64,000 nt of DNA from assembly GCF_003641205.1 (NCBI RefSeq), contig NZ_CP032762.1, forward strand, positions 1,488,001 through 1,552,000, read 5' to 3'. Shown in pieces: positions 37,452-63,693 of this stretch (the stretch's first letter is position 1; each line of letters begins with the position of its first letter). The notes under the pieces are model-generated. The model was not told where the DNA came from. It ran no database searches and saw only the letters and a list, made by a program, of their open reading frames with translations. This DNA comes from Rhodococcus sp. P1Y. Lineage in GTDB: Bacteria > Actinomycetota > Actinomycetes > Mycobacteriales > Mycobacteriaceae. A program made the position numbers and the translations under genes.

Positions 37452-37581
37452 GCGGTCACCCTAACGGCTGATCGCATTCGGTGACCGCTCGCGCTACAGT
37501 GATGCCGAGCGGGGGCGGCTGAGACTGGATCGTTATATACCCAGTCGGCGAGTCCCTTCGCAGGTCCTAGTGAGGCAGGTC

Positions 37582-43857: not shown

Positions 43858-45264
43858 GTGAACGGCGCAGAGCTGAACGTGCTGGCCGTTGCCGGTGCGT
43901 TGTCCACCATTGTGGTCGCGGCGGTCTTCGTGCCAGGGATCGCTCGGGTGTTCCTGATCGCGCAGGCTGTGTACTGGTCGTTGTCGTACATCGCGCGTCC
44001 GGTTGTACTTCTGTGGACACTTCCGGTTCCGCAGTTCGCCGACAGCATCGCCGACCCCCGACTCGCCGGCGTCGGGTACGACCGCGGCATCGAAGCAGCG
44101 TTGAATCCCGTCGTGTTCGGCATGTGGTTCTACGCCGCGCTCGTTGTCGTGTACGCGGTGTGGTCCAGGCGTAAGACGCAGACACTGCAGGTCTCCGCAG
44201 CATCGTCGGATCCGAACTTCTTTCCCACACTCTGGGTGGTCTACGTGCTCGGCACGTTGGGGCGGCTCGTGTCCTACGCCACGGGTTCGACGGGATCTGC
44301 CGGCGACGTCTCGAGCGCGAACCCGATCCTCGACTTCGTCACGACGATGGCGACGGTCGGTGCGCTCGGTCTGATCGTGTTCGCGCGACCGACGAATCCC
44401 AGATCGACTGCGTTGTTGCTCGCCGCGATGGCGGGCGGAGAATTTCTCTGGACGGTGGCGGTCGAGTCGAAGACGCCTGTTCTCGGCGCAGCGCTTGCGC
44501 TTGCAGTGCGATTCGCGATGACAGGGTGGAACCGCTCGACCACCGTTGGAATCGGCTTCATCGGAGTGGGCGCCGTCGGGGCGTTCGGGTTACTGCAGTC
44601 GCTCAAGACCTCGGGTTCCACGCAGAGCGTCGCCCTGGTCGCCGACGCAAGCTACCCAGCATCGGTGCAGCCGTTCTTGAGTATTCTTCGTCGATTCGAC
44701 CTTCTCGAAGCCGCCACCGACGCCTGGTACATGAACGGGCGCCCGTGGATTTCCGGATCCGACGTGGTCCGCAACGCCATCCTGAATTTTGTCCCGTCGC
44801 AAATTCTCGGCGCCGAGAAATTTCAGTCGGGCACGGCCTGGGCGTCGCAGGTACGAGGTTCCTCGGTCGATATGACCGGGATTTCCGTATCTTTGGCGGA
44901 AGGAAACGTGAACGAAGGTTACGTACTGGGCGGCTACTCGGGCATCGTGTGCTCGATGCTGTTCACCTTCCTGCTGTTGCTCCTTGCGGTGCGGTGGATT
45001 CTGGCACGCAACGTGATCCCGGTGGTGCTGGGACTGACGTTGATCGAGTTCCCGGTTCTGTTCGAACGAGGAATTCTAGGAAGCACGGAGTCTTTGGGTA
45101 AGTCGCTGCAGGCGGCAATCCTGATTTGGATGGTCTATCTGTGCGTCGGCGAGTACCGCCGACGGACCGCACGAACCGTGTCCGGAGACAGTGCGGACAC
45201 AGAAGTAGTACAGCTGGCTCCGGCCGGCGGCATCGCGAACAAAGGATTGAACACATGGGCCTGA
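43858..45264 (+). CDS. wzy: Polysaccharide polymerase (Wzy/O-antigen-ligase-like)
   Basis: 468 residues from GTG 43858. About ten to twelve membrane segments and a large periplasmic loop between residues ~280 and 340 (DAWYMNGRPWISGSDVVRNAIL, AEKFQSGTAWASQVRGSSVDMTGISVSLAEGNVNEGYVLGG), as is typical of Wzy and EpsG-like polymerases. Sequence identity in this group is always low, so the call rests on topology and on its place between the flippase and chain-length genes. It joins flipped repeat units on the outer face of the membrane. Confidence 0.75.
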   Translation: MNGAELNVLAVAGALSTIVVAAVFVPGIARVFLIAQAVYWSLSYIARPVVLLWTLPVPQFADSIADPRLAGVGYDRGIEAALNPVVFGMWFYAALVVVYAVWSRRKTQTLQVSAASSDPNFFPTLWVVYVLGTLGRLVSYATGSTGSAGDVSSANPILDFVTTMATVGALGLIVFARPTNPRSTALLLAAMAGGEFLWTVAVESKTPVLGAALALAVRFAMTGWNRSTTVGIGFIGVGAVGAFGLLQSLKTSGSTQSVALVADASYPASVQPFLSILRRFDLLEAATDAWYMNGRPWISGSDVVRNAILNFVPSQILGAEKFQSGTAWASQVRGSSVDMTGISVSLAEGNVNEGYVLGGYSGIVCSMLFTFLLLLLAVRWILARNVIPVVLGLTLIEFPVLFERGILGSTESLGKSLQAAILIWMVYLCVGEYRRRTARTVSGDSADTEVVQLAPAGGIANKGLNTWA

Positions 45265-49341: not shown

Positions 49342-50696
49342 GCTCGGGAGGAATCGGCCGCCGCAGGCTCCTACTGGCGTCGGCCGGTGCCGCGTTGATG
49401 ACTCCGTTGGCCGCCGCGTGTGCTTCCGGCACCGACGAGGAGCGGGTCGAGTTCCGATCTCCGACAGTCACGGACACCCCGTCCGCCAAGAACGTCCGGG
49501 ACTTCGGGGCCGTCGGTGACGGTGTCGCGGACGACACCGATGCGGTGCTGTCGGCGTTCGCGGACGCCGGCGAGCGCGTCGTCGTCTACTTTCCGGCCGG
49601 AAACTACCGTGTGAGCCGGTGGCCGGAGATGGTCGATTACACCGCTGTGCTCGGCGACGGCGGTGACGTCTCGACGGTGATCTACGACGGTGACGCAACG
49701 CTGATCGAGCTCAGGAACACACAACGCATCAATTTCAGGCGCCTCGGGTTCTTCGCCACACGCAACGGCAGCACCGTTGTGTCCCTGGCGAATTGCTTCC
49801 GCTGCTCGTTCGATTCGGTCGTCATCAGGGGAAATCACTCCAGCGGCACCTATCCTGATTTCCTCGACCAGCGTGGCGTCGTGCTGTCCGAAAACACCGG
49901 TGGCACTTCGTTCGTGAACTGTGACATCAACAATTTCGGAACCGGCGTGGTGACGTCCTGCATCCAGAACTACCTGACGTCGTCGAAGTTGACCAGCAAC
50001 TACGTGGGTGTGCTCGGGACCGGCAACGATTTCAACGCAGGCCTCTCCTTCGCCAACGTCGAATTCGTCTCGGACAACGACCCGAACACGACCGATACTC
50101 ACCTCCGAATCGACGGAGCATCCAACGATTGGTGGCTCGCCAACGTCTGGTTCGAAGGATGCGACAAGGCAGTGGTCGTCGGTGAAGCGGGTCGCGGTGG
50201 CCCGGCGCAATTCGGGATGGTCAACTGCAAGGTCGCCGCACGCACGATCTGCATCGATCTGAGGTACTGCAGGCAGCCGTATCTGGCGAACGTTCGCTTC
50301 GATCCCGACCCCGATCGTCAGCCGGTCGAATTGCGCATCGATGCTGCCGGGTGCGCCCATGGAACGGCAGTCGGATTGGTCTCCAGCGCAGCGGATGACA
50401 TAGCACTCGACACCTTCCCGCCCGGATGGATCGTCACCGGCCGAGGAGTCGCGTCGGCCCCTACCTTCGTCGGGACCGTCGTCGCGCGGGGTTCGACCGA
50501 AGGCGTCGATCTCGTGCAGGCGCGGACTGTGAACGACGAGCTCGTCGCTGCAGTCCTTCCCAGTGGCACATGGCTTTCCGAGCGATCGGACGGGGGAGTC
50601 GTGCTGAAGGACTCCGCCGGGGCCTACTGGCGGTTGACCGTGGAGACCGACGGCAGTGTCCGGACCTCCTCGCTGGGGGAGGTCCGGCCCACCTGA
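49338..50696 (+). CDS. Exported pectate-lyase-3/beta-helix protein (first of a convergent pair)
   Basis: 452 residues from GTG 49338. A Tat-like or lipoprotein-type signal (GRRRLLLASAGAALMTPLAAACAS) is followed by VRDFGAVGDGVADDTDAVLSAF, the classic start of pectate-lyase-3 (GH28/GH55/tail-spike-like) beta-helix domains. The right-handed beta-helix continues with N-x-x-F/S repeats to about residue 350, and a small C-terminal beta domain follows. It probably cleaves or binds the surface polymer of this locus. The paralogue is read in the opposite direction at 50704. Confidence 0.82.
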   Translation: MSSGGIGRRRLLLASAGAALMTPLAAACASGTDEERVEFRSPTVTDTPSAKNVRDFGAVGDGVADDTDAVLSAFADAGERVVVYFPAGNYRVSRWPEMVDYTAVLGDGGDVSTVIYDGDATLIELRNTQRINFRRLGFFATRNGSTVVSLANCFRCSFDSVVIRGNHSSGTYPDFLDQRGVVLSENTGGTSFVNCDINNFGTGVVTSCIQNYLTSSKLTSNYVGVLGTGNDFNAGLSFANVEFVSDNDPNTTDTHLRIDGASNDWWLANVWFEGCDKAVVVGEAGRGGPAQFGMVNCKVAARTICIDLRYCRQPYLANVRFDPDPDRQPVELRIDAAGCAHGTAVGLVSSAADDIALDTFPPGWIVTGRGVASAPTFVGTVVARGSTEGVDLVQARTVNDELVAAVLPSGTWLSERSDGGVVLKDSAGAYWRLTVETDGSVRTSSLGEVRPT

Positions 50697-50703
50697 TCGT
50701 CGG

Positions 50704-51969
50704 TCAGATATTGCCTGCGTCGACGGCCGACACCTGACCGGTGTTGCTGACAGCGAGTTTCCAGATCTTGCCGTTCGGAGATCGTACGAGCGGTCCGCCG
50801 GCGGCAAGGTGCTTGGCTCGGCCGGTGACGGTCCAGCCGGCAGGGAATGTCGACATCGGGAAGTCCGCTCCGACACTGGTGATGAGGTTGGTGGCGACGC
50901 CCTCGGGGACGTTGGCCGCATTGATCTTCAGTAGCTGAGGTTGGGCATTCTGGTCGGCGTCGAATGCGACGTTCGCCAAATATGGCTGCCGGCAGTGCAT
51001 CAGATCGAGGTCGACAGTTCGCGCTGCGATCTTGCAGTTGACCATTCCGAACTGCGATGGTCCACCGACCCCTGCCGCACCCACTGCGATTGCGGTTGCC
51101 GCTCCTTCGATCCACACATTGGTGAGCCACCAGTCGCTTGCGCGGCCGTCGATGTGGATGTGTTTGTCCGTGGACTTCACGTTGATGTCGGATACGAACT
51201 CGGTGTTGGAGATCGCCATACCCGACGCGAAGTTGTTGCCGGTACCGCGTAGCGAAATCCAGTTGGTGGTGAACTTGGAGTTGGTGATGTAGTTCTGGAT
51301 GGCGGAGGTCGAAATGCCGACTCCGAAATTGTTGATGTCGCAGTTGGAGAACGAGGTGCCACCGGTGTTGCTCGCGATCGACACACCGATTTGGCCGAGG
51401 TACCGGGGATTCGTTGCGGCGGTGTGGCTTCCGCGAAGCATCACCGATTCGAAGGAGCAGCGAAAGCAGTTGTCCAGTGAGATCAGCGTGCCACCGTTTC
51501 CGGCGGCCCAGAAGCCGAGATTCTTGAACGCGACGCGCTGGCGGTCGCGCAAAGCGAGCATGGTTCCGGTCCCGGTGTAGATGATCGTGGTGGCGTCGGC
51601 GCCTGCCCCTCGGACAGTGGTGAGACTGTCGAACTGGGGGAGGGAACTGACCTTGTACGACCCCGACGGGAAGTACAGCGACGCCTTGGCGGCGCGTGCG
51701 GCGTTGTACGCCGAGACGATGGCCGCAGTGTCGTCGGAGTTGCCGTTGCCCGTCGCGTTGTGCGGCGCTGCCTTGACGCTCACGAAGCCGAGTTGTGTTG
51801 CTGCGTCCGGTTCGCCGGCGGCCAGAGCGATCTCCATCGCATCGTCCTGCGGGCCACGAGTACTCAGAAGTCCGCCCGCGACGGCAGCTGTCCCCAGTCC
51901 TGCGACCAGGCCGCCACGAATCACGCTCCTGCGGTCGACGGTGCCTCGATCACCCAAAGTACGTCCCAT
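50704..51969 (-). CDS. Exported pectate-lyase-3/beta-helix protein (second of a convergent pair)
   Basis: 421 residues from ATG 51969. A Tat signal is visible (DRRSVIRGGLVAGLGTAAVAGG). The domain begins FVSVKAAPHNATGNGNSDDTAAIVSAYNAA and follows the first copy block by block, for example ISLDNCFRCSFESVMLRG versus VSLANCFRCSFDSVVIRG, and NCDINNFG, DWWLTNVWIEG and CRQPYLANV. The two are clear paralogues that converge with 7 bases between the stops. Upstream, 51970-52228 holds only an AT-biased promoter segment. Confidence 0.85.
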   Translation of the reverse strand: MGRTLGDRGTVDRRSVIRGGLVAGLGTAAVAGGLLSTRGPQDDAMEIALAAGEPDAATQLGFVSVKAAPHNATGNGNSDDTAAIVSAYNAARAAKASLYFPSGSYKVSSLPQFDSLTTVRGAGADATTIIYTGTGTMLALRDRQRVAFKNLGFWAAGNGGTLISLDNCFRCSFESVMLRGSHTAATNPRYLGQIGVSIASNTGGTSFSNCDINNFGVGISTSAIQNYITNSKFTTNWISLRGTGNNFASGMAISNTEFVSDINVKSTDKHIHIDGRASDWWLTNVWIEGAATAIAVGAAGVGGPSQFGMVNCKIAARTVDLDLMHCRQPYLANVAFDADQNAQPQLLKINAANVPEGVATNLITSVGADFPMSTFPAGWTVTGRAKHLAAGGPLVRSPNGKIWKLAVSNTGQVSAVDAGNI

Positions 51970-52228
51970 TGTTTCGCCTTCAGCTCGTGTCGAATGCCAG
52001 ATTTGGTGTGCCTCAAGCAAACCAGCAGTCCGCACATGACTCGGCGCGACTCGCGGCGCGTCAGGGCCGGGCTCGAGTTTGTTTGCATGGCCAATAACAA
52101 GTGTTGCGCATGTTTTACATCGCTAAGTAAGGAGACGCGGCGCTCAATGCCGCGGAAGAGGTGTCCGAACCGTATTCACGGCCAAAATCCGACTACGCGC
52201 CCATGCTGCCCGGAGAGCTGAGATGTGC

Positions 52229-53185: not shown

Positions 53186-53446
53186 GTGAAGCACTCGACG
53201 ACGCACGAGGACGTGATCCGCGACGTTCTAGGCCGTGTCGCAGACCTCGACGCCGACCCGAAGTCGATCAACGACACCGATGACCTATACGACGCCGGAT
53301 TGAACTCGCATGCCAGCGTTCGACTCATGCTCGGCCTCGAAGAAGCGTTCGAGGTCGAGTTTCCAGAGACCGCGCTTCGGAAATCGACGTTTGCCAGCAT
53401 CGAAGCGATCAAGGCGGCCCTCGTTCGCCTCGACGCGCATGTCTGA
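53186..53446 (+). CDS. Acyl/aminoacyl carrier protein (first copy)
   Basis: 86 residues from GTG 53186, chosen because AAGGA lies eight bases upstream (a TTG at 53180 is too close). An acidic four-helix carrier protein. The phosphopantetheine site is unusual: DLYDAGLN-S41-HASVRLM instead of the common LGxDS. The surrounding layout (D-L-Y-D-x-G-L-x-S-H-A-S-V, then LEEAFEVEFP and KSTFASIEAI) is that of carrier proteins charged by SerRS-like amino acid:[carrier protein] ligases. It overlaps or abuts the UndP-sugar transferase gene. A second copy of the same type lies at 61298-61558. Confidence 0.88.
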   Translation: MKHSTTHEDVIRDVLGRVADLDADPKSINDTDDLYDAGLNSHASVRLMLGLEEAFEVEFPETALRKSTFASIEAIKAALVRLDAHV

Positions 53447-53501
53447 TTCGACGGCTGCACAGGCAAACATCCAGGAAGTGCGACGAGGTGGAGGTTCCGT
53501 G

Positions 53502-54980
53502 GTGAGCACCCCTGAACTCGACAGCGAGCAACTGCAGAATCTGCTGCCCAAGTTTTCCAAGCAAGCACGTGCGAGTCGGTTCGCGGTCAACCGTGTGCCT
53601 GCTACCCCGATCCTCCTTCGCCCAGACCTACACGAGCGTCGGCGCCGAACCCACTCCTGGCTGACGGACAATTTTCCCATCGCCTTCCGAGCCGTGCTGG
53701 AAGCCGTCGCGGCGGCGGGTGCGTTGATTGCTCTGCCGGTGGTCGGCATGAGCATCCCGGTCGTCCTGCTCACCGTCCTGCTCCTGGGCGTCGTGCAGAA
53801 GTGGAAGCACGAACTGACGTTGTCGGTCCTCGACGACCTGCCTCGGCTGGCGGTATCCGTCGCCGCCGCAGTATCGATCGTCGAACTGATCGTGAATCAC
53901 GCAGTGACGCTGCCGCGGCTCGCGGTGCTCTGGGGTGTGGTGCTGGCTGCGGTCGTTGTGGCCCGAACCATCGCGTACTGGGCTACGGGCAAGCTGCGCC
54001 AGATGGAGAAATTCCAGCGTCGAACCATTTTGATCGGTAGTGGGAAGGTGGCAAGCGAGCTCGTTCGAGCGATGCAAGCGTCGCCCGACCTCGGTCTCAA
54101 GCCTCATGCGCTTCTCGACGACTCACCCATGCCCGCCGCCGTCGCCAGCACGATTCCGGTCGAGCCCTTGGCCAACCAGCTGCGCTCGTACATCGCGATT
54201 CATCAGATCGACACCGTCGTCATCGCGTTCTCGGCGATGCGAGAGTCTGCTCTTCTGTCGTTGCTGCGTGAATGCGATCGCATGGACTGCGAGATCCTTG
54301 TCGTACCGCGACTGTTCGAGTTCGTCAGTGTCAGCGGCGACATGGACCGGATCCACGCCATTCCTCTCGTTCGAATTCGCCGCGACGCGCACCGGTCACT
54401 GGCGTGGCGTATCAAACGCGTGGCAAGTCGGGTTCTGGCAGCGACGACGATGATCGTGCTGTCGCCGCTGCTGGCAGCGCTCGCATTGGCAGTGTGGTTG
54501 GACGATCGGTCGGCTCCGATCCTCTTCAAGCAGATCAGGGTCACCGGCGACGACGGAGAGTTCGAGTGCTTGAAGTTTCGCTCGATGAAACCGGAGTCCA
54601 CCCAGGAATCGGACACGACGTGGAACATCTCGCAAGATCACCGCGTCGGTCGTCTCGGCAAATTCATGCGACGATCGTCCTTGGACGAACTTCCCCAGCT
54701 CTGGAACGTCGTCCGTGGTGATATGGATCTGGTCGGCCCTCGTCCGGAGAGGCCGCACTTCGTCGACAAGTTCGCGAGTGAAATTCCGGGATACTCTGCA
54801 CGGCATCGTGTACCCGGTGGGCTCACGGGATGGGCTGCGGTTCACGGTTTTCGCGGCGATACGTCACTGAAGGACCGAGCGTTGTACGACAATTTCTACA
54901 TCGAGAACTGGAGCCTCTGGCTGGATGTAAAGATCATCCTGCGGACGGTCGTGTCCATCATCAGACGGACCGGTGGATGA
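53502..54980 (+). CDS. Undecaprenyl-phosphate sugar-1-phosphate transferase (WbaP/CpsE-like)
   Basis: 492 residues from GTG 53502, with GGAGG seven bases upstream; an ATG at 53439 is in frame and overlaps the carrier-protein gene by eight bases, but has no ribosome-binding site. An N-terminal membrane domain with four helices, a CoA-binding-like cytosolic domain (RRTILIGSGKVASELVRAMQ), then the catalytic sugar-transferase domain: HRSLAWRIKRVASRVL, LKFRSMKPES, RRSSLDELPQLWNVVRGDMDLVGPRPERP and PGLTGWAAVHGFRGDTSL-like residues (GGLTGWA). It starts the repeat unit by loading a hexose phosphate onto undecaprenyl phosphate. The stop overlaps the next start by ATGA. Confidence 0.9.
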   Translation: MSTPELDSEQLQNLLPKFSKQARASRFAVNRVPATPILLRPDLHERRRRTHSWLTDNFPIAFRAVLEAVAAAGALIALPVVGMSIPVVLLTVLLLGVVQKWKHELTLSVLDDLPRLAVSVAAAVSIVELIVNHAVTLPRLAVLWGVVLAAVVVARTIAYWATGKLRQMEKFQRRTILIGSGKVASELVRAMQASPDLGLKPHALLDDSPMPAAVASTIPVEPLANQLRSYIAIHQIDTVVIAFSAMRESALLSLLRECDRMDCEILVVPRLFEFVSVSGDMDRIHAIPLVRIRRDAHRSLAWRIKRVASRVLAATTMIVLSPLLAALALAVWLDDRSAPILFKQIRVTGDDGEFECLKFRSMKPESTQESDTTWNISQDHRVGRLGKFMRRSSLDELPQLWNVVRGDMDLVGPRPERPHFVDKFASEIPGYSARHRVPGGLTGWAAVHGFRGDTSLKDRALYDNFYIENWSLWLDVKIILRTVVSIIRRTGG

Positions 54981-55522
54981 ATATTCGGCGGTTCACCCTC
55001 GTAGCTGCTGTTCTTGCGGTGATCGGCGTGCTGGCAGGGCTGCCGGTGTACGTATTCCCTCAGGTGGACGAACTCCGCGCGGCCGACGCCGTCATCGTTC
55101 TGGGTGGCAGCCCGTACGAGCGCTTCGAATACGGTATCGACCTCGCCGAACAGGGTTACGCGCCACGCGTCGTACTGTCCAATTCGGTTGGGCCCGAAGA
55201 TCCACGCATGCAGCAGATTTGCGGCGGTGACTACTCCGTGGAGGTCGAGTGCTTCGTACCGAGCCCGTGGTCGACTCGCGGCGAAGCCGAGGAGATCGAA
55301 CGTCTGTCGTTGGAGAACGGGTGGAACCACATCATCGTGGTGACCTACACACCGCATCTGTCCCGAGCGCGGTTCATCGTCGAGGAGTGCTACTCGGGCG
55401 AACTGACGATGGCCGCCAGCCCGACGCATCAGAGCGCGATTCAATGGGTCGAGAGTTATATTTATCAGACCGCCGGGTATGCGAAGGCGCTTCTATCACC
55501 GTCGTGCAACGTCGAAGTGTAA
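54977..55522 (+). CDS. YdcF/DUF218-family membrane-anchored protein (locus copy)
   Basis: 181 residues, overlapping the sugar-transferase gene by ATGA. A signal anchor (FTLVAAVLAVIGVLAGLPVYV) is followed by the DUF218 domain: AADAVIVLGGSPYERFEYGIDLAEQGYAPRVVLSNS, PSPWSTRGEAEEIERLSLENGWNHIIVVTYTPHLSRARFIV. The Cys residues are conserved in position with the paralogue at 30548-31117 (two inside QICGGDYSVEVEC). These proteins act at the outer face of the membrane in envelope assembly. Here it is part of the polysaccharide machinery. Confidence 0.9.
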   Translation: MNIRRFTLVAAVLAVIGVLAGLPVYVFPQVDELRAADAVIVLGGSPYERFEYGIDLAEQGYAPRVVLSNSVGPEDPRMQQICGGDYSVEVECFVPSPWSTRGEAEEIERLSLENGWNHIIVVTYTPHLSRARFIVEECYSGELTMAASPTHQSAIQWVESYIYQTAGYAKALLSPSCNVEV

Positions 55523-55658
55523 CGATTCACAAACCAAAACCGGTTTATCCCCCGATAGCGCGCGTAAAACGGGGCGATTGGCTAATATTGCCTCACCGGG
55601 ATCAGACAAAAGCGACATGAACCCAGACCGGGGGCCTGTCAGCGGTAGGGAGCCAGAG

Positions 55659-56687
55659 ATGACGAGCGATGTATTCGCCGGCGCCGAGACATCGATCCTC
55701 GGTGTCCCGCCCGTAGGCCTCGGTGCGTTGTCGGCGATCGATCTGGATGCCGCAACGTACGAAGCGCATCCGATCCACGGCACTGCCCGGGTGTGGACCG
55801 AAACCAATTGCTATGTGGACCTGTGGGTCGAGCTGTTGCACTCGCTCGGCGCCGACCCCATCCCTGCACTGGCCTTCGTGCTGAGCGCGGGGTGTGACGG
55901 TCGGCAGTGGGACTTCGTCAAGTTCGAACCCGAGGATCTGCGACGCCTCTACGGCATCGAGGTCGCGGAGATGAACATCTGGCGACCGCTGACGGACCAC
56001 ATCCAGGAATCTCTGACCGACGGGGCGTTGACCACCGTCGAGGTCGACGGATTCTGGCTTCCCGATACCAACGGAACCAGCTACCGAAACCAGCACACGA
56101 AGACCACCATCGTTCCCAACTCGTTCGACTCGCTCAATCGAACACTCGGGTACTTCCACAACCGGGGGTACTACCAACTCGCCGGTGACGACTTCGACGG
56201 TGTCTTCGGGCTTGCACCGGCGGCGCCGGAACAGGTGCTCGTGCCGTACGTGGAGCGAGTCAAGTTCGACCGTAGCGTCATCGCTTCGGGCTTCGGCGAC
56301 GCCGACCTCGACATCGCGCGCGGTCACCTGGCTCGGCGATCGGCAGGAAATCCCGTCGAGCGTCTGGCGGACCGCGTGATCGCAGATGTGCCGTGGGTCC
56401 AGAGCCACGGACCCGACGCGTTCCACCTCTGGTCCTTCGGACTCCTTCGTCAATGCGGTGCTACCGCTGAATTGGCCGCCGACCTCTGCGGCTACCTCGA
56501 AGGACGCGGAGTCGAGGGCGCAGTCGAGGCCGTTCCCCACTTCCTTCAGGTCGCGAGCGGGGCGAAGGCAGTGCAGTTCCGCATGGCTCGCGCTGCTCGG
56601 GGACGATCGGTCTCGCTCGACGAGCCGCTCGCGTCCATGTCCGAACACTGGGATCAAGCAATGCAGAGGATAATCTCAGCCCTGTGA
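55659..56687 (+). CDS. DUF1839-family protein
   Basis: 342 residues from ATG 55659, with AGGGAG eight bases upstream; the ATG at 55617 lacks a ribosome-binding site. Family landmarks as I recall them: WTETNCYVDLWVELLHSLGADPIPALAFVLSAGCDGRQWDFVKFEPEDLRRLYGIEVAEMNIWRPL split over the first third, and a central YRNQHTKTTIVPN. The family is commonly found beside SerRS-like amino acid:[carrier protein] ligases. No catalytic mechanism is known. A Cys in the motif SAGCDG and several acidic residues could be active-site candidates. The GH2-like gene follows with a GTGA overlap. Confidence 0.82.
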   Translation: MTSDVFAGAETSILGVPPVGLGALSAIDLDAATYEAHPIHGTARVWTETNCYVDLWVELLHSLGADPIPALAFVLSAGCDGRQWDFVKFEPEDLRRLYGIEVAEMNIWRPLTDHIQESLTDGALTTVEVDGFWLPDTNGTSYRNQHTKTTIVPNSFDSLNRTLGYFHNRGYYQLAGDDFDGVFGLAPAAPEQVLVPYVERVKFDRSVIASGFGDADLDIARGHLARRSAGNPVERLADRVIADVPWVQSHGPDAFHLWSFGLLRQCGATAELAADLCGYLEGRGVEGAVEAVPHFLQVASGAKAVQFRMARAARGRSVSLDEPLASMSEHWDQAMQRIISAL

Positions 56688-59149
56688 CCTTTGACGTGCT
56701 GACGGACGCGATCTGGACATGCCTCGCGACCGAGCCGAAAACCGTCGTCGACCCGAAAAATCTGCCGTCGGATGCGGAGTGGCTCCGCGCACGCGTTCCG
56801 GGTACCGCGGCGGGTGCACTGGCCGATTCCGGAGTCACCGATTGGGCCACCCACGACGTCGACGCGCTCGACTGGTGGTTCGTCACCACCGTTGCTCTAA
56901 CGCCCGACGGTTCGGGGACGGGCACGCCCTTGCGGCTCGAACTCGACGGTCTGGCGACCCTGGCGACCGTCTGGGTGGACGGTCTGGAAGTGGCCCGTAG
57001 TCGGTCGATGTTCGCCCCCGTGATCGCCGAGATACATGCAGCAGGTGCACAGGTGAGCATTGCGATTCGATTCGAATCGCTGGCCGGTCGGCTGGCAAAG
57101 AGGATGCCGCGCGGGCGTTGGCGTTCGTCCATGATTGCGCAACAGGGCCTGCGGCACATCAGGACTACTCTTCTCGGACGCGCACCTGTCTACGGCACGC
57201 TTCCTCAGGTCGTGGGTCCCTGGCGTCCGATCAGGCTGCTCGTGGATCCGAAGCTGACCGACGTGGTGTGCCGCACTGCCGTGGTGGGAACGAGCGGAGT
57301 CGCGACGGTGACTGCGCGCAGCTCTGGACCGGGTCAGTCGGTCGTCGTCGAGCTGGGGAGTATTCGTCGCGAATTCATCTCGAACGGAACTGCTTTCGAG
57401 GCCACGATCGAGGTTGCCGACGCGCCCCGGTGGTGGCCGCATACGCACGGCGAACCCGTTCTCCATCCGCTGAGGGTGTTCACCGACGGTGACCTCGTGC
57501 ACGAGAGCGACGTCGGATTCAGGTCGATCGAGGTCGATCGCACCGCAGGGGGATTCGATCTGTCGATCAACGGCGTCGACGTGTTCTGCCGAGGAGTGTG
57601 TTGGACACCCCTCGATCCGGTCCGGCTCACCTCGGACTCCGACGCCCTGTACGCGTCGTTGCAGCGGATTCGGGACGCCGGAATGAACATGGTTCGGGTG
57701 GTCGGCACGCTCGTCTACGAACAGACCGAATTTTGGTCTCACTGTGCACAATTGGGGATCCTCGTCTGGCAAGACGTCATGCTCGCCACGACCGACCCGC
57801 CCGAGGATGCAGAGTTCACCGCCGACCTCGATGCCGAATTGGGGGCGCTGTTCGGTTCCCTGTCGGGCAATCCGGCACTCACCGTCGTCAGCGGCGGGAG
57901 CGAGACGTTGCAGCAGCCGACAATGCTCGGGCTCCCTGCGGCGCAGCAGTCGATCACTGCGCTGGAACGGACTGTGCCAGAAGCGCTGAGACGGTTCCTG
58001 CCGGGCACGCCGTATGTTCTGTCCAGTCCGTCGAGCGAGAACGGTGACGTCCACACTCACTCGAGCACGGGAGTTGCGCATTATTTCGGCGTCGGCGGAT
58101 ATCTCCGTCCGCTGTCCGATGTACGGTCCGCCCGCGTCCGTTTCGCGGCCGAATGCCTGGCCTTTTCGATCCCTCCCGAACGGCGAGCTGTGGAGCGATT
58201 CTTCGGTTCGGCCAATCCGGCCGGGCACGCGCCCGAGTGGAAAGCCGCCGTCCCGCGTGACCGCGGCGCGTCCTGGGACTTCGAGGACGTCCGTGATCAC
58301 TACGTGCGTCAACTCTTCGGCGTCGATCCTCATATCGTCAGAAGATCCGACCCCGAGCGTTATCTCGATCTCGGTCGTGCCGCTGTCAGTGAATTGATCG
58401 GCGCATGTCTTGTCCATTGGCGCCGGACCGCGTCGAGTTGTGCAGGCGCGCTGGTACTGATGGCTCGTGACTTCGAGCCCGGTGCGGGTTGGGGCCTGCT
58501 GGACGTAGACGGTATGCCCAAAGCCCCGTGGTTCGCTGCTGCCCGTGCGAGCGCACCCGTGGCGATCGTGATCGAGGACGACGGTCTCGACGGTCTGACC
58601 CTCGAGGTCGTCAACGATTCACCCGTGGCGATCGACGGCGAGCTGCGGGTAGTCGTGCACACGGAGACAGGTCCCAGCTCGGCTGCGTCCAGTTCTGCCG
58701 TGTCGATCGACCCGCACAGCAGCCTCGTTCGGTCTCTGGACTCGCTGATGGGTGGGTTTCAGGACTTCAATCACGCGCACGGGTTCGGTGTGCGAACCTA
58801 CGACGCGGTGGTCGCGGAGCTCGTCGACTCGGACGGACGTCGCTGTGCAAGTACCACGTTCGTCATCGGCGGCGCTGCTCGTCCACAGCAGTTCGACATC
58901 GGGCTGCGCGCAGAGGTAGTCGAAAGAGCCTCGGGTGGTTGGGAGATCGAGATATCGACGGCGGCAACGGCGCAGTACGTATGCGTCGAATTCGACGACG
59001 GCGAGCCGTCGGATTCGTGGTTCCATCTGGCGGCCGGGCAGATTCGGCATATCGCGGCCAAGAATCGCACAACCGACCGGGTGCCCTCGGGACGGATCAG
59101 AGCGCTGAATTCGGCCAAGGGTGCTCGTATCGAACCACCGCGTTCGTAA
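56684..59149 (+). CDS. GH2-like (beta-mannosidase-like) protein with altered active site
   Basis: 821 residues from GTG 56684. Layout of GH2: N-terminal jelly-roll (VPGTAAGALADSGV, WWFVTTVAL, RLELDGLATLATVWVDG), immunoglobulin-like domains, then a TIM barrel (INGVDVFCRGVCWTPLDPV, IRDAGMNMVRVVG). The acid/base Glu may be E407 in NPALTVVSGGSET (usually GNNE) and the nucleophile E490 in RVRFAAECLAF (usually SEFG). Both glutamates remain, but neighbouring residues are changed, so it may act on an unusual glycosidic or aminoacyl substrate or only bind. No signal peptide, so it appears cytoplasmic. Its stop is followed by a terminator hairpin. Confidence 0.78.
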   Translation: MTFDVLTDAIWTCLATEPKTVVDPKNLPSDAEWLRARVPGTAAGALADSGVTDWATHDVDALDWWFVTTVALTPDGSGTGTPLRLELDGLATLATVWVDGLEVARSRSMFAPVIAEIHAAGAQVSIAIRFESLAGRLAKRMPRGRWRSSMIAQQGLRHIRTTLLGRAPVYGTLPQVVGPWRPIRLLVDPKLTDVVCRTAVVGTSGVATVTARSSGPGQSVVVELGSIRREFISNGTAFEATIEVADAPRWWPHTHGEPVLHPLRVFTDGDLVHESDVGFRSIEVDRTAGGFDLSINGVDVFCRGVCWTPLDPVRLTSDSDALYASLQRIRDAGMNMVRVVGTLVYEQTEFWSHCAQLGILVWQDVMLATTDPPEDAEFTADLDAELGALFGSLSGNPALTVVSGGSETLQQPTMLGLPAAQQSITALERTVPEALRRFLPGTPYVLSSPSSENGDVHTHSSTGVAHYFGVGGYLRPLSDVRSARVRFAAECLAFSIPPERRAVERFFGSANPAGHAPEWKAAVPRDRGASWDFEDVRDHYVRQLFGVDPHIVRRSDPERYLDLGRAAVSELIGACLVHWRRTASSCAGALVLMARDFEPGAGWGLLDVDGMPKAPWFAAARASAPVAIVIEDDGLDGLTLEVVNDSPVAIDGELRVVVHTETGPSSAASSSAVSIDPHSSLVRSLDSLMGGFQDFNHAHGFGVRTYDAVVAELVDSDGRRCASTTFVIGGAARPQQFDIGLRAEVVERASGGWEIEISTAATAQYVCVEFDDGEPSDSWFHLAAGQIRHIAAKNRTTDRVPSGRIRALNSAKGARIEPPRS

Positions 59150-59179
59150 GCACCCGATCTCGAGCGGACGCTTACGAAC
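59142..59179. terminator. Bidirectional terminator hairpin
   Basis: Arms GTTCGTAAGC (59142-59151) and GCTTACGAAC (59170-59179) are perfect. It separates the convergent GH2-like gene and the amino acid:[carrier protein] ligase gene. Confidence 0.75.
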
Positions 59180-59189
59180 ACTTCACGTG

Positions 59190-60137
59190 TCAGAGTGAGC
59201 GAATCTTGCTCGGCCACTGCCGTGGGTCGAGGCCGTGAGTCCGCAGCATGCTCAACGCAATTCGTTCCATACCGAAGCCGACACATGCACTGTGAGCAGG
59301 CTGTCCGTCGGGTGTCGTGATCTCGAAGGTGTGGCCGAAGTGGTCACGGTGGCAGTTGCACGATACGACGGCAGTGCCCTCGTCGAGGTCCCCGTACAGG
59401 TTGACGACGAGCTCGGTCTTGAGGTTCTCGTTCCGCTGGTTGGCAGCAAGGATGCGGCCCGCGCGACCGAAGAACGGATCGTTCGCGATGACTGCGCGCG
59501 CTTCGAGTCCGAGGTCCTCGAGCACCTGGAGACCACGATCGACCCAACGCTCACGATGTGCGATGGCGTCGGCCGGCGTTCCGACGCGCACGAACTCGTG
59601 CATCCGGAAGGCCTGCATCCGTGCGGGATCCACCGCAGGCTCGTGGCGGAAGCAGTATCCGTAGATGTCGAACAGCACGCCGTCCTCGGGCAGGACACCG
59701 GTCAGCATCGAGTAGGCAGGGTGGCACGCGGCCGAGACCAACATGGTGCCTGCTGAATGCAGGAAGTGATCCCAGTCCTTGCCCTCCGACCGTTCGGCGA
59801 GGAGAGCTGCGTGCGTCTTGTTGTCGCCGTCGAAGGTGTTGATGGCGCCCGTGAGGTTGGGGAACGACGCGATGTAATCCGTACGTTCGAAAGAATCTCG
59901 CGGAAAGACCGGCGGGAACCTGAAACGGGGTGCTTCGTACCCGTGTTCGCCTGCGCCTGCGGCTTTCACGACCGAATCGATCGTGTCGATGACGTCCTCG
60001 AACAGGCCGGTGCGTCCGTACAGGCCCTCCACCGAAGTCGGTACCAGCAAACCTGCCTCGATCAACTGGCTTCGAAACAGGCTGCGTTCACGGTCGAGAT
60101 CGGTCATTTCGCCGATGCTGCTGATATTGGTCGTCAT
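59190..60137 (-). CDS. Amino acid:[carrier protein] ligase (class II, SerRS-like)
   Basis: 315 residues from ATG 60137. It lacks the tRNA-binding coiled coil of true seryl-tRNA synthetase and is a stand-alone catalytic domain. Class II motif 2 is FRHEPAV...RMHEFVRVG and motif 3 is GFGMERIALSM. Zinc ligands can be seen at Cys138 (SAACHPAY), Glu181 (MHEFV) and Cys285 (HSACVGF), as in Bradyrhizobium and Agrobacterium ligases of this family. These make an aminoacyl adenylate and transfer the amino acid to the phosphopantetheine of a carrier protein, not to tRNA. The cognate carrier gene is in the same operon (61298-61558). Which amino acid is used (Gly, Ala or Ser are typical) cannot be told. Confidence 0.92.
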   Translation of the reverse strand: MTTNISSIGEMTDLDRERSLFRSQLIEAGLLVPTSVEGLYGRTGLFEDVIDTIDSVVKAAGAGEHGYEAPRFRFPPVFPRDSFERTDYIASFPNLTGAINTFDGDNKTHAALLAERSEGKDWDHFLHSAGTMLVSAACHPAYSMLTGVLPEDGVLFDIYGYCFRHEPAVDPARMQAFRMHEFVRVGTPADAIAHRERWVDRGLQVLEDLGLEARAVIANDPFFGRAGRILAANQRNENLKTELVVNLYGDLDEGTAVVSCNCHRDHFGHTFEITTPDGQPAHSACVGFGMERIALSMLRTHGLDPRQWPSKIRSL

Positions 60138-61294
60138 CACTTGCCCTTGAAAATGAGTGCGAGTTGAGAATTGTGGCCGAGAATGCGCTCGTTGCTGACC
60201 ATGATTGCCGATCCGTGGGCGTCGCGAAGATGCCGTCCGATGCTCAGATCGCTGTCCTCGCGGTATCCGGAGATGCCGCAGATCTGGAGAGCCTGCCCAA
60301 CGATCTGGATCACCAGACTGGACGCCGTCACCTTCGTCGCGTTGATCTTGAGAGCGAAGCCCAGCGCGCTGAGCTGCTGCGGATCGTCCGCGATCTCCTC
60401 GAACTTGGATGCCGACATGAACACGGTGTCGGCCATCTGCTCGTGCAACACCATCAGTTCGGCGAGCCGTAGTGCGCTCGGCGGCGGCGTCCCGGGAGTG
60501 CGGCGGGCGGCTTTCTGCACGAACCGACGTGCCTTGGACACCGCAGCGTCGGCGATCCCGAGCCAGGCGGATGCCCACAGGACGTGGGCAACGGGAAGCA
60601 TGGTCTGCGCTGAGATATCGCCGTAGTTGTCGCCGAGGATGTTGGAGGACGGCGCGGAGGCGTCGAGCATGAATCCTGGGCTGCAGGTACCCCGGAAACC
60701 CATGGTGTCCCAGTTTCCGGTTTTCTCGAGCTGCACGTCCGGCTTGACGCACGCGACGAGCACCTGGTCGCTGGGCGGGCTGTCGACCGAACGGCGAGCG
60801 GTGGCCAGGATGATTTCGGCGTACTCGCCGTACGAGATGACCGGCGCGTTCTTCGACAGCCGGATCCGGTCACCGTCGTACTCGACGGCGCAACTGCTCG
60901 AACGGACGTCGCCGCCGATGTTGATCTCGGTGGTCGCCGACGCGACCAACGGCTGTTCCTCCGCGATGTGGTGCAGCAGCTTCTGCATCGCATCGGACTT
61001 GCCGTGACGAACCAGGCTGAGTATCTGCGACTGGTGCATCACGAAGATCATTGCTGTGGAGGCGCACTCGGCACCGAGCGCTCGGGCTGTGTGTGCGAGC
61101 TCGGTCAGAGTTGCGCCGTCGCCGCCGAGTTCGACGGGGATGGCGGCTGCCAGCAGGTTGGCGGCGCGGAGCGCCGCAACGGACTCCGACGGGAAACGGG
61201 CATCTCGATCCACGCTGTGCGCGTGCTCCCGAAGGATTGCGAGAACGTCGGGAAGCGAGATCGTTTCGGTGCGGTGGTCCTGGGTGGTCGTCAT
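60137..61294 (-). CDS. Acyl-CoA-dehydrogenase-like flavoprotein of the aminoacyl-carrier operon
   Basis: 385 residues. The stop overlaps the ligase start (TGATG). FAD-binding pattern of the family: VASATTEINIGGDVRSSSCAVEYDGDRIRLSKNAPVISYGE, MGFRGTCSPGFML and the C-terminal GISGYREDSDLSIGRHLRDAHGSAIM, which normally carries the adenine and flavin contacts. The catalytic Glu of the dehydrogenase family cannot be placed with certainty. In this setting the probable substrate is an aminoacyl thioester on the carrier protein (for example alpha,beta-desaturation to a dehydroamino acid or imine), by analogy with flavoproteins of non-ribosomal peptide loci; this is inference. Confidence 0.85.
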   Translation of the reverse strand: MTTTQDHRTETISLPDVLAILREHAHSVDRDARFPSESVAALRAANLLAAAIPVELGGDGATLTELAHTARALGAECASTAMIFVMHQSQILSLVRHGKSDAMQKLLHHIAEEQPLVASATTEINIGGDVRSSSCAVEYDGDRIRLSKNAPVISYGEYAEIILATARRSVDSPPSDQVLVACVKPDVQLEKTGNWDTMGFRGTCSPGFMLDASAPSSNILGDNYGDISAQTMLPVAHVLWASAWLGIADAAVSKARRFVQKAARRTPGTPPPSALRLAELMVLHEQMADTVFMSASKFEEIADDPQQLSALGFALKINATKVTASSLVIQIVGQALQICGISGYREDSDLSIGRHLRDAHGSAIMVSNERILGHNSQLALIFKGK

Positions 61295-61297
61295 GAA

Positions 61298-61558
61298 TCA
61301 GGCGCTCAGACGCGCAAGCGCATCGGAGATCGCACTGATGCTGCCGAAAGTCGACTTCTGCAGCATCGAGTCGGGGAATTCGATGTCGAACTCGTCCTCG
61401 AGCGCGATCATCACGTTCACACTGGCGTGCGACGTCAGCCCGTTGTCGTACAGGTCTGCGAGCTCGTCGATCTCCGAAACTGGGATCGGGAGCTTGCCGA
61501 ACTGCTCCAGTACCCCTCGAATACGTACCGACTCTGCTGTCAGGTTGTTCGTCTGCAT
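61298..61558 (-). CDS. Aminoacyl carrier protein (second copy)
   Basis: 86 residues from ATG 61558 with GGAGG upstream. Phosphopantetheine attachment at S43 in DLYDNGLT-S-HASVNVM; the rest (LEDEFDIEFPDSMLQKSTFGSISAI) matches the first copy at 53186 closely. It leads the operon carrier protein, flavoprotein, ligase, with only three bases before the flavoprotein start. It is the likely cognate partner of the ligase. A loaded Ser requires a phosphopantetheinyl transferase from elsewhere in the genome. Confidence 0.9.
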   Translation of the reverse strand: MQTNNLTAESVRIRGVLEQFGKLPIPVSEIDELADLYDNGLTSHASVNVMIALEDEFDIEFPDSMLQKSTFGSISAISDALARLSA

Positions 61559-61893
61559 TTCGAATCCTCCACGATCATGTCTCACCGAGACCTGATGATC
61601 TCGCGAATTGCGACTGACGAACCGAATCGAGCCAACGAATCGGTTCGTGAAGTCTCCCCAGACCTACACAAACAATATCCTAGACTGTTATGGTCCGTTA
61701 CAGCCGACCGAAGTACGAAAAAGTTGTCGGTTTCGCCCGATTTGGGATATTCCGTTGGGTAATTGCCTAGGTTCTAGCGCGTGCACTGTGAATCACGGTT
61801 GGTGACGTGAACGGGTAGCCTGACGTTCATGCGATCGACGGATGGTGCGAGTTCGCGGCACGGCCATGCGATTCGCCGGTGCGAGGTGGCTTC
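61559..61893. other. 335-base divergent intergenic region between the carrier-protein operon and the Hsp70-like gene
   Basis: It is A+T-richer than its surroundings (AACAATATCCTAGAC, AAAAAGTTGTCGG). It must hold both promoters. On the minus strand GGCTGTAACG (61696-61705) resembles the GGTTGTAA motif of other promoters here. On the plus strand TAGCCT (61816-61821) is a -10 candidate. No gene, except a 22-codon ORF, and no repeat shared with other places is seen. Confidence 0.6.
61618..61647 (-). promoter_or_regulatory. Hairpin in the leader of the carrier-protein/ligase operon
   Basis: CGAACCGAATCG (61618-61629) and CGAATCGGTTCG (61636-61647) pair over 12 bases with one mismatch around a 6-base loop. 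It lies 60 bases upstream of the carrier-protein start, likely in the untranslated leader or promoter. It may be an operator or an attenuator. Confidence 0.4.
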
Positions 61894-61897
61894 GTGA
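61829..61897 (+). CDS. Possible 22-residue leader peptide of the second Hsp70-like gene
   Basis: ATG 61829 is 8 bases after TAGCCT, the distance expected for a leaderless transcript. The ORF begins MRSTDGASSRHGHAIRRCEV and ends in TGA at 61895-61897, which overlaps the GTG start of the Hsp70-like gene (GTGA). The coupling geometry is the only support. It could equally be untranslated. Confidence 0.3.
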   Translation: MRSTDGASSRHGHAIRRCEVAS

Positions 61898-63693
61898 CCG
61901 CTCTTCTCGGGGTGTCCATGGGCGCCCACGCGGTGCGTATGGCGCTGCCTCGCAATGCCGCGGCCCTCGGATCCGTTCTGACGCCCTCGCGCGTGCTCGA
62001 GGCACCGCAACAACTTTTCTTTCGCAATCAGGTGATAGACACCGTCGACGAGGATGTCGAGTATCTCGCCGCCGAATCGATCAGCGCGCTCGCTGCGGAA
62101 TCGGAACCGTCGATGGCTACCGGTGTCGCGTATCGGGATGCCCACCAGGCAGACACCCTGCATCGGGCCCTGGAAAATCAGCATCTGCAGAACTACCACC
62201 TCGTGCACGAGGTCGAGGCTGTCATCGAATACCTAGCCGAGAGCGGCGAGGCAGCGGGGTATGCGACTGTCGCACTCTTCGACCTCGGTAGCTCGGGAGT
62301 GAACGTCAGCGTGGTGGATCTCGGTGCTCGACGCGTCATCGCGACCCGCCGAAGCACCGAGTTCAGTGGGGATCGGCTCGACGCGATCCTCAGAGACAAC
62401 CAACTCGATCGTCTCGGCAAGCCCGCGGATTCACCCGACATCGACTTGTTCACCCGTCGCTGCCGCGTCGCCAAGGAGCGCCTCTCGAGCAACGATGCCG
62501 TCTGCCTGCCCGACGAGAGCGGCATGATTCTTCTCTCGCGTGACAGCTATGAGACGTTGATCACCGACGAGGTCGATCGCTCGATCGAATTCGCGCGCGA
62601 CGTCCTCATCGATGCTCACGTTCCGATCGACGCTGTGGTCCTGATCGGCGGCGGCGCCCGCATCCCTCTGGTTCGCAAGAGAGTCGGCCCATCGCTGGCG
62701 CTTCCGGCTCTCACTCCGACCGAGCCCGAGTCCGTCGCCGCACGCGGCGCGGCCCTGTCGGCACGCTCGTCGGAAACGAACGCTCCTGCCCAGCCGCCGA
62801 CTGCCGCCCGGCCGTCACCCGCAGCCCGACCGTCGCCCGCAGCCGCTCGGTCAGTGCCCGCAGCCGCTCGACCAGTGCCCGCAGCCGCTCGGCCGACGCC
62901 CGCAGCCGCGACCCGTGTGCGTCCCGCGTCACCTCGCCCGACCGACGCGACGCCCACCATCTCGATCTCGCGGGACACGCTGCCCACCGCGCTTCCGCCG
63001 CTCGTGGGCGCGACTGCAGCAACCACCGCGTTCGCGCCGCCCACATCGGCGCCCGTGGCGAAGTCTGCTTCAGCGTTCGCACCCGCAACGGCTCCCGCGC
63101 CCATCCCCATGCCATCCCCTGAGCCCAGCGGTAAGGACAACGTGCAGGCACCCAGCATCGAGGCGCCGGAGTCGCAGGCACCGGCGTCCAGCCACTACGC
63201 GCTGAAGAACGTCTACTGGTTGGATGCCGACTACGACGACTCCGACGGCGAGGACGATTCGGAACGCAAGCGACGCAAGATTCGTTCGTGGTCCGTGGTC
63301 GGAGTAGCCGCAGCAGCGGTCATAGCCGTGTCGGGCTTTCTCCTGACCAGGCCGACCAGCACGCCGACCGTCGTCGACACCGCGGTGACGCAGGCCCCGG
63401 CGCCCAGCGCGCCTGCCACCACTGCGCCGCCGTCGACCATTCCCAGCATTCCCGTCGTACCGGTGCCGCCGCCCGCGCCGGTCGCGACCACCGAGGTTCC
63501 GATCGAGCCCGAGCCTGAGCCGACCGTCGTCGAACAGACTCGGGAGCCAGTGGTGACGACCACGCAGGAAGCGCCACCACCGGCGCCTTCCGAGGTCGCG
63601 CCGGCGCCTTTGCCCGAACCGCCGCCACTGATACCTGGCCTCCCTGGATTTACGCTGCCGTCGATTCCGCCGCTGTTCCCACCGGCGCCCTGA
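61894..63693 (+). CDS. Membrane-anchored Hsp70-like protein with long linker and extracellular Pro-rich tail (second copy)
   Basis: 599 residues from GTG 61894 with GAGGTG upstream. The actin-fold ATPase domain (residues ~1-280) shows LLGVSMGAHAVRMAL, VALFDLGSSGVNVSVVD and VVLIGGGARIPLVRKRV, each aligned with the copy at 37582. A long Ala/Pro linker has 24-base tandem repeats in the DNA (62818-62915) that encode A-A-A-R-x-x-P. A membrane helix (SWSVVGVAAAAVIAVSGFLL) is preceded by basic residues, so the ATPase domain is cytoplasmic. The extracellular tail ends LIPGLPGFTLPS. No substrate-binding domain. Function unknown; tied to the polysaccharide locus by place and symmetry. Confidence 0.82.
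   Translation: MTALLGVSMGAHAVRMALPRNAAALGSVLTPSRVLEAPQQLFFRNQVIDTVDEDVEYLAAESISALAAESEPSMATGVAYRDAHQADTLHRALENQHLQNYHLVHEVEAVIEYLAESGEAAGYATVALFDLGSSGVNVSVVDLGARRVIATRRSTEFSGDRLDAILRDNQLDRLGKPADSPDIDLFTRRCRVAKERLSSNDAVCLPDESGMILLSRDSYETLITDEVDRSIEFARDVLIDAHVPIDAVVLIGGGARIPLVRKRVGPSLALPALTPTEPESVAARGAALSARSSETNAPAQPPTAARPSPAARPSPAAARSVPAAARPVPAAARPTPAAATRVRPASPRPTDATPTISISRDTLPTALPPLVGATAATTAFAPPTSAPVAKSASAFAPATAPAPIPMPSPEPSGKDNVQAPSIEAPESQAPASSHYALKNVYWLDADYDDSDGEDDSERKRRKIRSWSVVGVAAAAVIAVSGFLLTRPTSTPTVVDTAVTQAPAPSAPATTAPPSTIPSIPVVPVPPPAPVATTEVPIEPEPEPTVVEQTREPVVTTTQEAPPPAPSEVAPAPLPEPPPLIPGLPGFTLPSIPPLFPPAP
62818..62915 (+). repeat. 24-base tandem repeats in the Hsp70-like linker
   Basis: Units near GTGCCCGCAGCCGCTCGACC recur three to four times with small changes. 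They encode an Ala/Pro/Arg linker between the ATPase domain and the membrane helix. The unit length is a multiple of three, so copy changes keep the frame. Confidence 0.7.

Follow-up and report, generated by a model that had tools for sequence, protein, structure and literature searches.

A conserved amino acid:carrier protein ligase module with a near-constant cysteine hydrolase partner in a surface-polysaccharide locus of Rhodococcus sp. P1Y

Introduction

What becomes of an amino acid once a ligase has loaded it onto a carrier protein? This question is raised by a locus of Rhodococcus sp. P1Y in which, among genes for a surface polysaccharide, the following can be distinguished: (i) an amino acid:carrier protein ligase resembling seryl-tRNA synthetase (SerRS); (ii) two carrier proteins; (iii) a flavoprotein of the acyl-CoA dehydrogenase superfamily; (iv) a DUF1839 protein; (v) a protein similar to family 2 glycoside hydrolases (GH2); and (vi) a two-domain cysteine alpha/beta-hydrolase. 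The stretch analysed (hereafter, the window) comprises 64,000 nucleotides (1488001-1552000) of a genome that consists of one contig of 5.87 Mb, and the closest named relatives of its ligase and its DUF1839 protein belong to Rhodococcus/Rhodococcoides. The module formed by these genes is real and well conserved, and the central idea about it, that the amino acid ends on a surface polysaccharide, was anticipated in print.

The original prediction, made from the letters of the window, had presented this idea as new. It is not, because a note in proof published in Biol Direct in 2010 states it (PMC2922099). From the same neighbourhoods, that note predicted the aminoacylation of surface sugars by a ligase, an acyl carrier protein (ACP), a redox enzyme, the conserved open reading frame (ORF) Atu2574, a glycosidase and 'liposaccharide' genes, that is, by the same parts and with the same predicted role as in the window (PMC2922099). 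Atu2574, which may correspond to DUF1839, was named as the enzyme that forms the amide, by sugar-amine ligation (PMC2922099). The note-in-proof section names neither the cysteine hydrolase nor AcpS and gives no co-occurrence statistics (PMC2922099); relative to it, the present analysis adds (i) the hydrolase as a core partner; (ii) the pairing of DUF1839 with GH2; (iii) the split arrangement of hydrolase and ligase; and (iv) the exchange of the ligase. In the literature, where subscription journals were mostly not covered, neither a test of the 2010 prediction nor experimental work on DUF1839 or on what happens to the aminoacyl group was found.

In the D-alanylation of teichoic acids by the Dlt system, an amino acid is activated, held on a small carrier and ends on a surface polymer. 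Dlt works alike, but its ligase type is unrelated to that of the window. If the pathway proposed below is true, the module would constitute a tRNA-independent, carrier-dependent route for amino acids onto surface sugars in several bacterial phyla. Its near-constant cysteine partner, its tie to a sugar-phosphate transferase and a genome in which the ligase seems to have been exchanged make the question testable.

Composition and conservation of the module

The module was traced in the best 80 of at least 578 confirmed ligase relatives obtained by a scan of genome contigs, and its partners were found by phmmer with the proteins of the window. The collinear order carrier-flavoprotein-ligase-DUF1839-GH2-hydrolase is present in Actinobacteria, Proteobacteria and metagenome-assembled genomes (MAGs) labelled Acidobacteria, Planctomycetes and Abditibacteriaceae (several loci from distant phyla are MAGs, with taxon labels as deposited). 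All six genes lie on the DNA around the ligase in 38/80 loci and fewer do so in the remaining 42, some of which are incomplete because the contig ends or because DUF1839 lies farther away (as in a Rhodococcus group; 15 kb in genome G296).

The ligase passes its curated family model (Table 1). Among solved structures, it comes closest to the entries for the Bll0957 ligase (4h2w matches residues 37-315 with 241.5 bits). When the 315-residue protein is compared with type-2 SerRS, only residues 125-313 align, to positions 305-505 of 527. Because the match is confined to the catalytic part, the ligase lacks the tRNA-binding arm, as had been predicted. The Cys138/Glu181/Cys285 site, also part of that prediction, is invariant in a 6-member alignment and conserved at >=95% in 81 members. 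No extra Pfam domain, and hence no fusion protein, occurs in the best 120 of 5156 matches (303-331 amino acids), much longer relatives being outside the search.

The ligases of Bradyrhizobium and Agrobacterium (PDB 4h2w and 3mey) belong to the same family. To our knowledge, this family has solved structures and a described charging reaction, and no product is given in the literature. Mocibob reportedly described these amino acid:carrier protein ligases in 2010 and 2013. No use of their charged carrier was found in the literature; here, the set of partners and its co-occurrence are mapped. As family precedents for the amino acid, a review table gives glycine, alanine or serine. In another study, bll0957 and the next gene in locus numbering, bll0958 (an acyl-CoA dehydrogenase), are each listed with a 3-fold change in a phaR mutant (PMC10888616).

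Both carriers pass model NF005480 (93.9 and 95.2 bits; cut-off 72) and stay far below the cut-off of the DltC model (22.3 and 19.5 bits; cut-off 68). The phosphopantetheine Ser of their 'LxSHASV' motif is Ser in 80/80 alignment rows with a letter. Two carriers beside one ligase are unusual: 79 of the 80 related loci have one and the other has none. No AcpS homolog lies within the window; an AcpS-type phosphopantetheinyl transferase is found by clustering in 22/80 loci, and Pfam assigns ACPS to 16 of 132 neighbour genes taken from 22 of 23 chosen actinobacterial loci (L014 left out).

Other genes of the window were discarded as parts of the module. The GNAT at 52229, which the original prediction had listed as a candidate transferase, has a homolog in 0/80 loci, and its candidacy is withdrawn; the pectate-lyase-like proteins at 49338 and 50704 have homologs in 1/80 and 0/80 loci, respectively, and the YdcF protein is similarly rare (Table 1).

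More distant SerRS-like ligases are present in loci L006 (genome G204) and L007 (G128); in L006, one such ligase is followed by an acyl-CoA dehydrogenase that keeps its catalytic Glu, which is a different kind of cluster. Ligase and carrier both occur twice in locus L127 (G139), at a distance of about 10 kb, with DUF1839 and GH2 adjoining only one of the copies, and two ligases are also present in G310, G374 and G432.

Co-occurrence of the ligase and the cysteine hydrolase

Two samples served to assess co-occurrence, one of 251 genomes from the family to which the window belongs and one of 296 genomes from its phylum (actinobacteria); in both, only the best 4 or 5 hydrolase candidates per genome were scored. 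In the family sample, the ligase (E 1e-60) and the hydrolase (E 1e-30) are each present in 87 genomes, and both in 85 (Fisher's test, 4e-62, which counts genomes as independent though they are related; the ligase is found in 18/31 genera of this sample). Just 2 of the 164 genomes without the ligase have the hydrolase. At the level of the phylum, the ligase is rare: 7/296 genomes have a match at E <=0.001 and 5 of them a match below 1e-90, the weak matches in the other two, plus two further ones in G107, being more distant SerRS-like proteins. The hydrolase (E 1e-20) is present in 6 genomes of this sample, including 4 of the 5 with a strong ligase (Fisher's test, 2e-7); the remaining two are G096 and G177. 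Finally, among 33 ligase genomes (that of the window and 32 in which one of the 80 loci lies, chosen to be diverse and to have long contigs) a hydrolase homolog is found in every one at E 1e-15.

The hydrolase consists of an N-domain without nucleophile (GxRxG) joined to a C-domain with a cysteine elbow (GxCxG). The elbow Arg is kept in 54/59 aligned members and the elbow Cys in 55/55 with letters (4 gaps). The protein looks like a fusion of the exosortase A-associated hydrolases 2 and 1 (TIGR03101/TIGR03100), at scores below both curated cut-offs (99 vs 202.75 and 68.7 vs 168.45 bits, respectively); a separate hydrolase pair of Thiomonas shares the GxRxG and GxCxG elbows and is likewise below the cut-offs (81.8 and 56.2). 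The folds attributed to the hydrolase and to DUF1839 are predicted, from family models and published analysis. Already listed as a candidate in the original prediction, the hydrolase at 47635, as a near-constant partner of the ligase with a conserved Cys, is now the leading candidate for the putative transferase.

The DUF1839 protein and its pairing with GH2

DUF1839 occurs only alongside the ligase: all 62 of its occurrences in the family sample and all 3 in the phylum sample fall in ligase genomes. It was found in 27 of the 32 chosen ligase genomes and in that of the window. Cys51 and His167 are present in 55/55 members and Thr150 in 53, with Ser in the other 2. A published analysis places the family in the papain-like fold with a C(T/S)H triad and proposes a glycan-linked role for it from gene context (PMC10318531). 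The residues of the window's protein fit such a triad, the Thr and His being chosen by conservation.

By published analysis, BtrH, the ACP:aminoglycoside acyltransferase of butirosin, shares the broad papain-like fold class with DUF1839. In a profile alignment, the catalytic Cys columns of both coincide and the order of His and Thr/Ser is swapped in DUF1839; the match itself reaches a probability of 20% (E 0.0011) or 1.9% (E 0.026), depending on the alignment, next to 8-12% (E 0.004-0.0025) for an unrelated GH2 control.

In the GH2 protein, Glu407 (48/49 members, one Gln) and Glu490 (49/49 with letters), which we take to be the acid/base and nucleophile pair, correspond to Glu residues of 6bye and to the positions that are altered in 6byi and 6byg. 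No signal peptide was seen in it. The pairing with DUF1839 is close: both are present in 28 of the 33 ligase genomes (GH2 at E 1e-40) and neither in 5. Likewise, 51 of the 80 loci have both and 4 have DUF1839 without GH2. Of these four, only L071 is a genuine exception: in L045 and L079 the contig ends, and L035 is a doubtful case at 24 bits.

These data bear on an explanation with the same destination as the pathway proposed below, from which it differs in the enzyme that transfers. The cysteine hydrolase would have an editing role, as a thioesterase that frees carriers bearing the wrong group, and DUF1839 would be the true transferase (an amide-bond former), replaced by another acyltransferase where DUF1839 is missing. 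The exclusive association of DUF1839 with the ligase and its published fold favour it, and it comes close to the 2010 prediction for the conserved ORF (PMC2922099). Against it, DUF1839 is missing in 25/87 ligase genomes of the family sample and, genome-wide, in 5 of the 32 chosen ones, whereas the hydrolase is nearly always present. We consider this division of labour possible, if rather unlikely.

The flavoprotein

Position 376 of MCAD, which we take to be the usual site of the catalytic Glu in acyl-CoA dehydrogenases, is occupied by Val/Ile in 71/71 members (the column was checked with the L006 dehydrogenase, which has Glu there). At the position equivalent to IVD 254, presumably that of the IVD-type base, 72/72 members have Ser/Ala/Thr/Cys, in a column placed by motif only. 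Both known dehydrogenase bases are then missing in every aligned member, so classical alpha,beta-desaturation was rejected; the oxidation on the carrier that the original prediction considered is unsupported in this classical form. His87, Cys135 and His237 are invariant. Among solved relatives, dehydrogenases come first (best E 1e-18) and, lower down, flavin oxygenases such as DnmZ, DszC and a nitrososynthase.

Glycine cannot chemically undergo desaturation. If glycine is the substrate, desaturation is ruled out, which leads us to guess that the flavoprotein may carry out an oxygenase-like step on the carrier-bound amino acid. The 2010 note likewise suggested a monooxygenation (PMC2922099).

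Link to polysaccharide genes

The positions of polyprenyl-phosphate sugar-1-phosphate transferase (PHPT, PF02397) and ligase genes were compared in 32 genomes, scoring pairs on different contigs as misses. Of 21 actinobacteria, 13 have a PHPT no more than 25 kb from the ligase, where the coverage by PHPT genes predicts 0.54 (P 1e-16), and 8 have one within 10 kb; the corresponding comparison of hydrolase and PHPT positions gives 11/21 (0.51 expected). The 132 actinobacterial neighbour genes include Glycos_transf_1 (19), Glycos_transf_2 (5), PHPT (5) and Polysacc_synt (3), and 101 of the 109 neighbour genes from 16 of 17 chosen loci of other phyla (8 edge or mis-framed genes left out) include Glycos_transf_1 (4), Glycos_transf_2 (3) and Polysacc_synt (3), both counts being without a random-locus control. 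Besides, the window's run of glycosyltransferase (GT) and Wzx/Wzy genes, GT-GT-Wzx-GT-Wzy, adjoins the module in loci of Enemella, Tsukamurella and R. kroppenstedtii (the run is present in L022, L049 and L057). The polysaccharide link is therefore well supported in Actinobacteria.

In 12 of the 85 family genomes with both genes, the hydrolase lies away from the ligase: 488-571 kb off in 3 genomes and on a different contig in 9, in some of which the position at a contig end means that the two may in fact be close. Eight of these split genomes were looked at. In 7, only 3-4 kb separate the hydrolase from a PHPT homolog, and a weak match to a glycosyltransferase lies in between; in the eighth no PHPT was seen. 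All seven belong to one genus and may therefore reflect one event.

In Thiomonas (L080), an exopolysaccharide (EPS) locus lies downstream, in which an XrtA-associated ATPase and TIGR03016 and EpsB_2 proteins score above cut-off; it holds GLRLG and GFCSG hydrolases at a distance of about 17 kb from the ligase. MAG L065 has a similar-looking set, recognised only by reading and motif, 11-13 kb away from its ligase.

Exchange of the ligase

Genome G096 lacks a match to the NF005479 ligase but keeps the hydrolase together with an AcpS homolog and a carrier of the NF005480 type (96.4 bits). At 2.4 kb from this set, it encodes an amino-acid adenylation enzyme that is free-standing and scores slightly below the TIGR01733 cut-off (313.8 vs 317.4 bits), and a homolog of the window's GNAT lies between the set and this enzyme. 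In this one genome, the adenylation enzyme, tied to the carrier by position only, seems to have replaced the ligase. Pyridoxal-phosphate enzymes and homoserine O-succinyltransferase-like, ATP-grasp and FAD-NAD(P)-binding proteins are encoded near the swapped module (L125-L126), and possibly belong to a separate amino-acid pathway. The other family-sample genome with the hydrolase and without the ligase is G443.

The adenylation enzyme is of the nonribosomal peptide synthetase (NRPS) type, and the chemistry of carrier plus ligase is NRPS-like as well, in keeping with the first proposal for the ligase family, a building block for a nonribosomal peptide or siderophore (as reported in PMC2922099). 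Yet no condensation, ketosynthase or other NRPS/polyketide synthase family is among the 25 commonest families of the 132- and 101-gene neighbour sets, and this proposal is very improbable.

Proposed pathway

Starting from the gene content, residue conservation, co-occurrence and linkage observed, the best explanation, with a probability of about 0.5, is a cytoplasmic pathway that leads from amino acid to carrier, flavoprotein, cysteine enzyme and a sugar for the surface polysaccharide; we infer in it the identity of the amino acid, the action of the flavoprotein, the transferring cysteine enzyme and the acceptor. Its steps would be as follows: (i) the ligase loads a small amino acid as a thioester onto the carrier; (ii) the flavoprotein probably alters the carrier-bound group; (iii) the two-domain hydrolase carries out the acyl transfer that all these pathways share, or the first half of it; (iv) DUF1839 (papain-like Cys-Thr-His) and GH2 form a second, optional branch, with a cytosolic glycoside as its substrate; (v) the hydrolase and/or DUF1839 moves the group onto a sugar at the cytosolic face; and (vi) assembly and export of the polymer follow, by PHPT, glycosyltransferases, Wzx and Wzy. 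The module's chemistry looks cytosolic because none of its seven proteins in the window has a 19-residue hydrophobic segment above 1.6.

Several observations speak against this pathway: (i) outside Actinobacteria, few genomes have a PHPT close to the ligase (1/11 at 25 kb, 0.27 expected, P 0.24; 0/11 at 10 kb), and 0/11 have one near the hydrolase; (ii) the ligase occurs without the hydrolase in 2/87 family genomes and in G107, and hydrolase matches are partial in some genomes, e.g. G315 and G326; (iii) no acceptor amine or sugar was identified; (iv) the cysteine hydrolase could merely hydrolyse thioesters; and (v) the profile match between DUF1839 and BtrH hardly exceeds unrelated controls (E 0.0011 vs 0.0025). 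In addition, no annotated polysaccharide genes were found beside five plasmid loci (two of Azospirillum, two of Rhizobium and one of Caballeronia), within at most 14 kb per side or up to the record end and under incomplete annotation. Outside Actinobacteria the link is thus weak, and the polysaccharide locus that the original prediction took as the setting of the module is unsupported as a general one, because in 10/11 non-actinobacteria no PHPT was found within 25 kb on the contig of the ligase and no glycosyltransferase is annotated beside the five plasmid loci; for Actinobacteria, the setting stands. Of the co-occurrences that the same prediction proposed to check, that of ligase and DUF1839 is borne out, and the link to polysaccharide genes is well supported in Actinobacteria and weak elsewhere.

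The module could instead make a free cytosolic glycoconjugate (a mycothiol-like cofactor, an osmolyte or a specialised metabolite): the amino acid would be joined to a sugar, GH2 would do the trimming and the actinobacterial linkage would be regulatory or historical. The isolated plasmid operons, the rarity of a PHPT within 25 kb outside Actinobacteria (1/11), the cytosolic look of the enzymes and the kept catalytic residues of GH2 are all consistent with it. Against it stand the excess of nearby PHPT genes in Actinobacteria, the hydrolase beside a sugar-phosphate transferase in 7/8 split genomes (one genus) and the XrtA EPS locus that holds relatives of both halves of the hydrolase. We regard a free product as unlikely.

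A bolder version of the polysaccharide pathway makes the cysteine hydrolase a new class of aminoacyl-carrier-protein:glycan transferase, with a split form in exosortase-type EPS loci, interchangeable SerRS-like and adenylation ligases, and a flavoprotein that perhaps oxygenates the carrier-bound amino acid. Such a generalisation is doubtful; if true, two unrelated ligase families would feed one route that adds amino-acid-derived groups to surface polysaccharides.

Gene order and neighbouring features

The genes named in the original prediction are present at about the places given there, and Pfam or curated models confirm their families (Table 1). On the plus strand, carrier 1, PHPT, YdcF, DUF1839 and GH2 follow one another and converge on carrier 2, flavoprotein and ligase, encoded on the minus strand. 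The reading frames of DUF1839/GH2 and of flavoprotein/ligase overlap by a few bases, in an operon-like manner.

Table 1. Features of the module and of the polysaccharide locus (positions within the window).
Feature	Position	Strand	Evidence
Glycosyltransferases	39182-40315, 40306-41478, 42826-43833	+	Pfam Glycos_transf_1, Glyco_trans_1_2 above cut-off
Wzx-like flippase	41435-42829	+	Pfam Polysacc_synt_3 above cut-off
Wzy-like membrane protein	43858-45264	+	Label by reading and position; no Pfam match; strongly hydrophobic; homologs in L022, L049, L057
Wzz chain-length protein	45258-47609	+	PF02706, 41.9 bits (cut-off 25.5)
Two-domain alpha/beta-hydrolase, GLRAG N-domain, GICSG C-domain (Cys394 putative nucleophile)	47635-49341	+	
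Carrier protein 1, PRK07081/NF005480 type, LNSHASV	53186-53446	+	Curated model
Polyprenyl-phosphate sugar-1-phosphate transferase (PHPT)	53460-54980, start uncertain	+	PF02397; TIGR03025, 367.3 bits (cut-off 295.55)
YdcF/DUF218 protein	54974-55522	+	Pfam; homolog in 2/80 loci, not a conserved part
DUF1839 protein	55659-56687	+	353 bits; C51, T150, H167 conserved
GH2 beta-mannosidase-like protein	56684-59149	+	PF22666, 43.1 bits (cut-off 27); E407, E490 kept
Amino acid:[carrier protein] ligase	59190-60137	-	NF005479 equivalog, 434.1 bits (cut-off 357)
Acyl-CoA-dehydrogenase-superfamily flavoprotein without known catalytic bases	60137-61294	-	PF02771, PF00441 above cut-off
Carrier protein 2, LTSHASV	61298-61558	-	Curated model NF005480

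Two similar pectate-lyase-like proteins (PF12708) are encoded in opposite orientation at 49338-50696 (+) and 50704-52035 (-), the former with a homolog in the Enemella locus L057. The locus is flanked by two Hsp70-like proteins with proline-rich C-terminal tails (37570-38982 and 61879-63693; PF00012, 61.6 and 60.4 bits), and homologs of this pair adjoin the module in Rhodococcus relatives.

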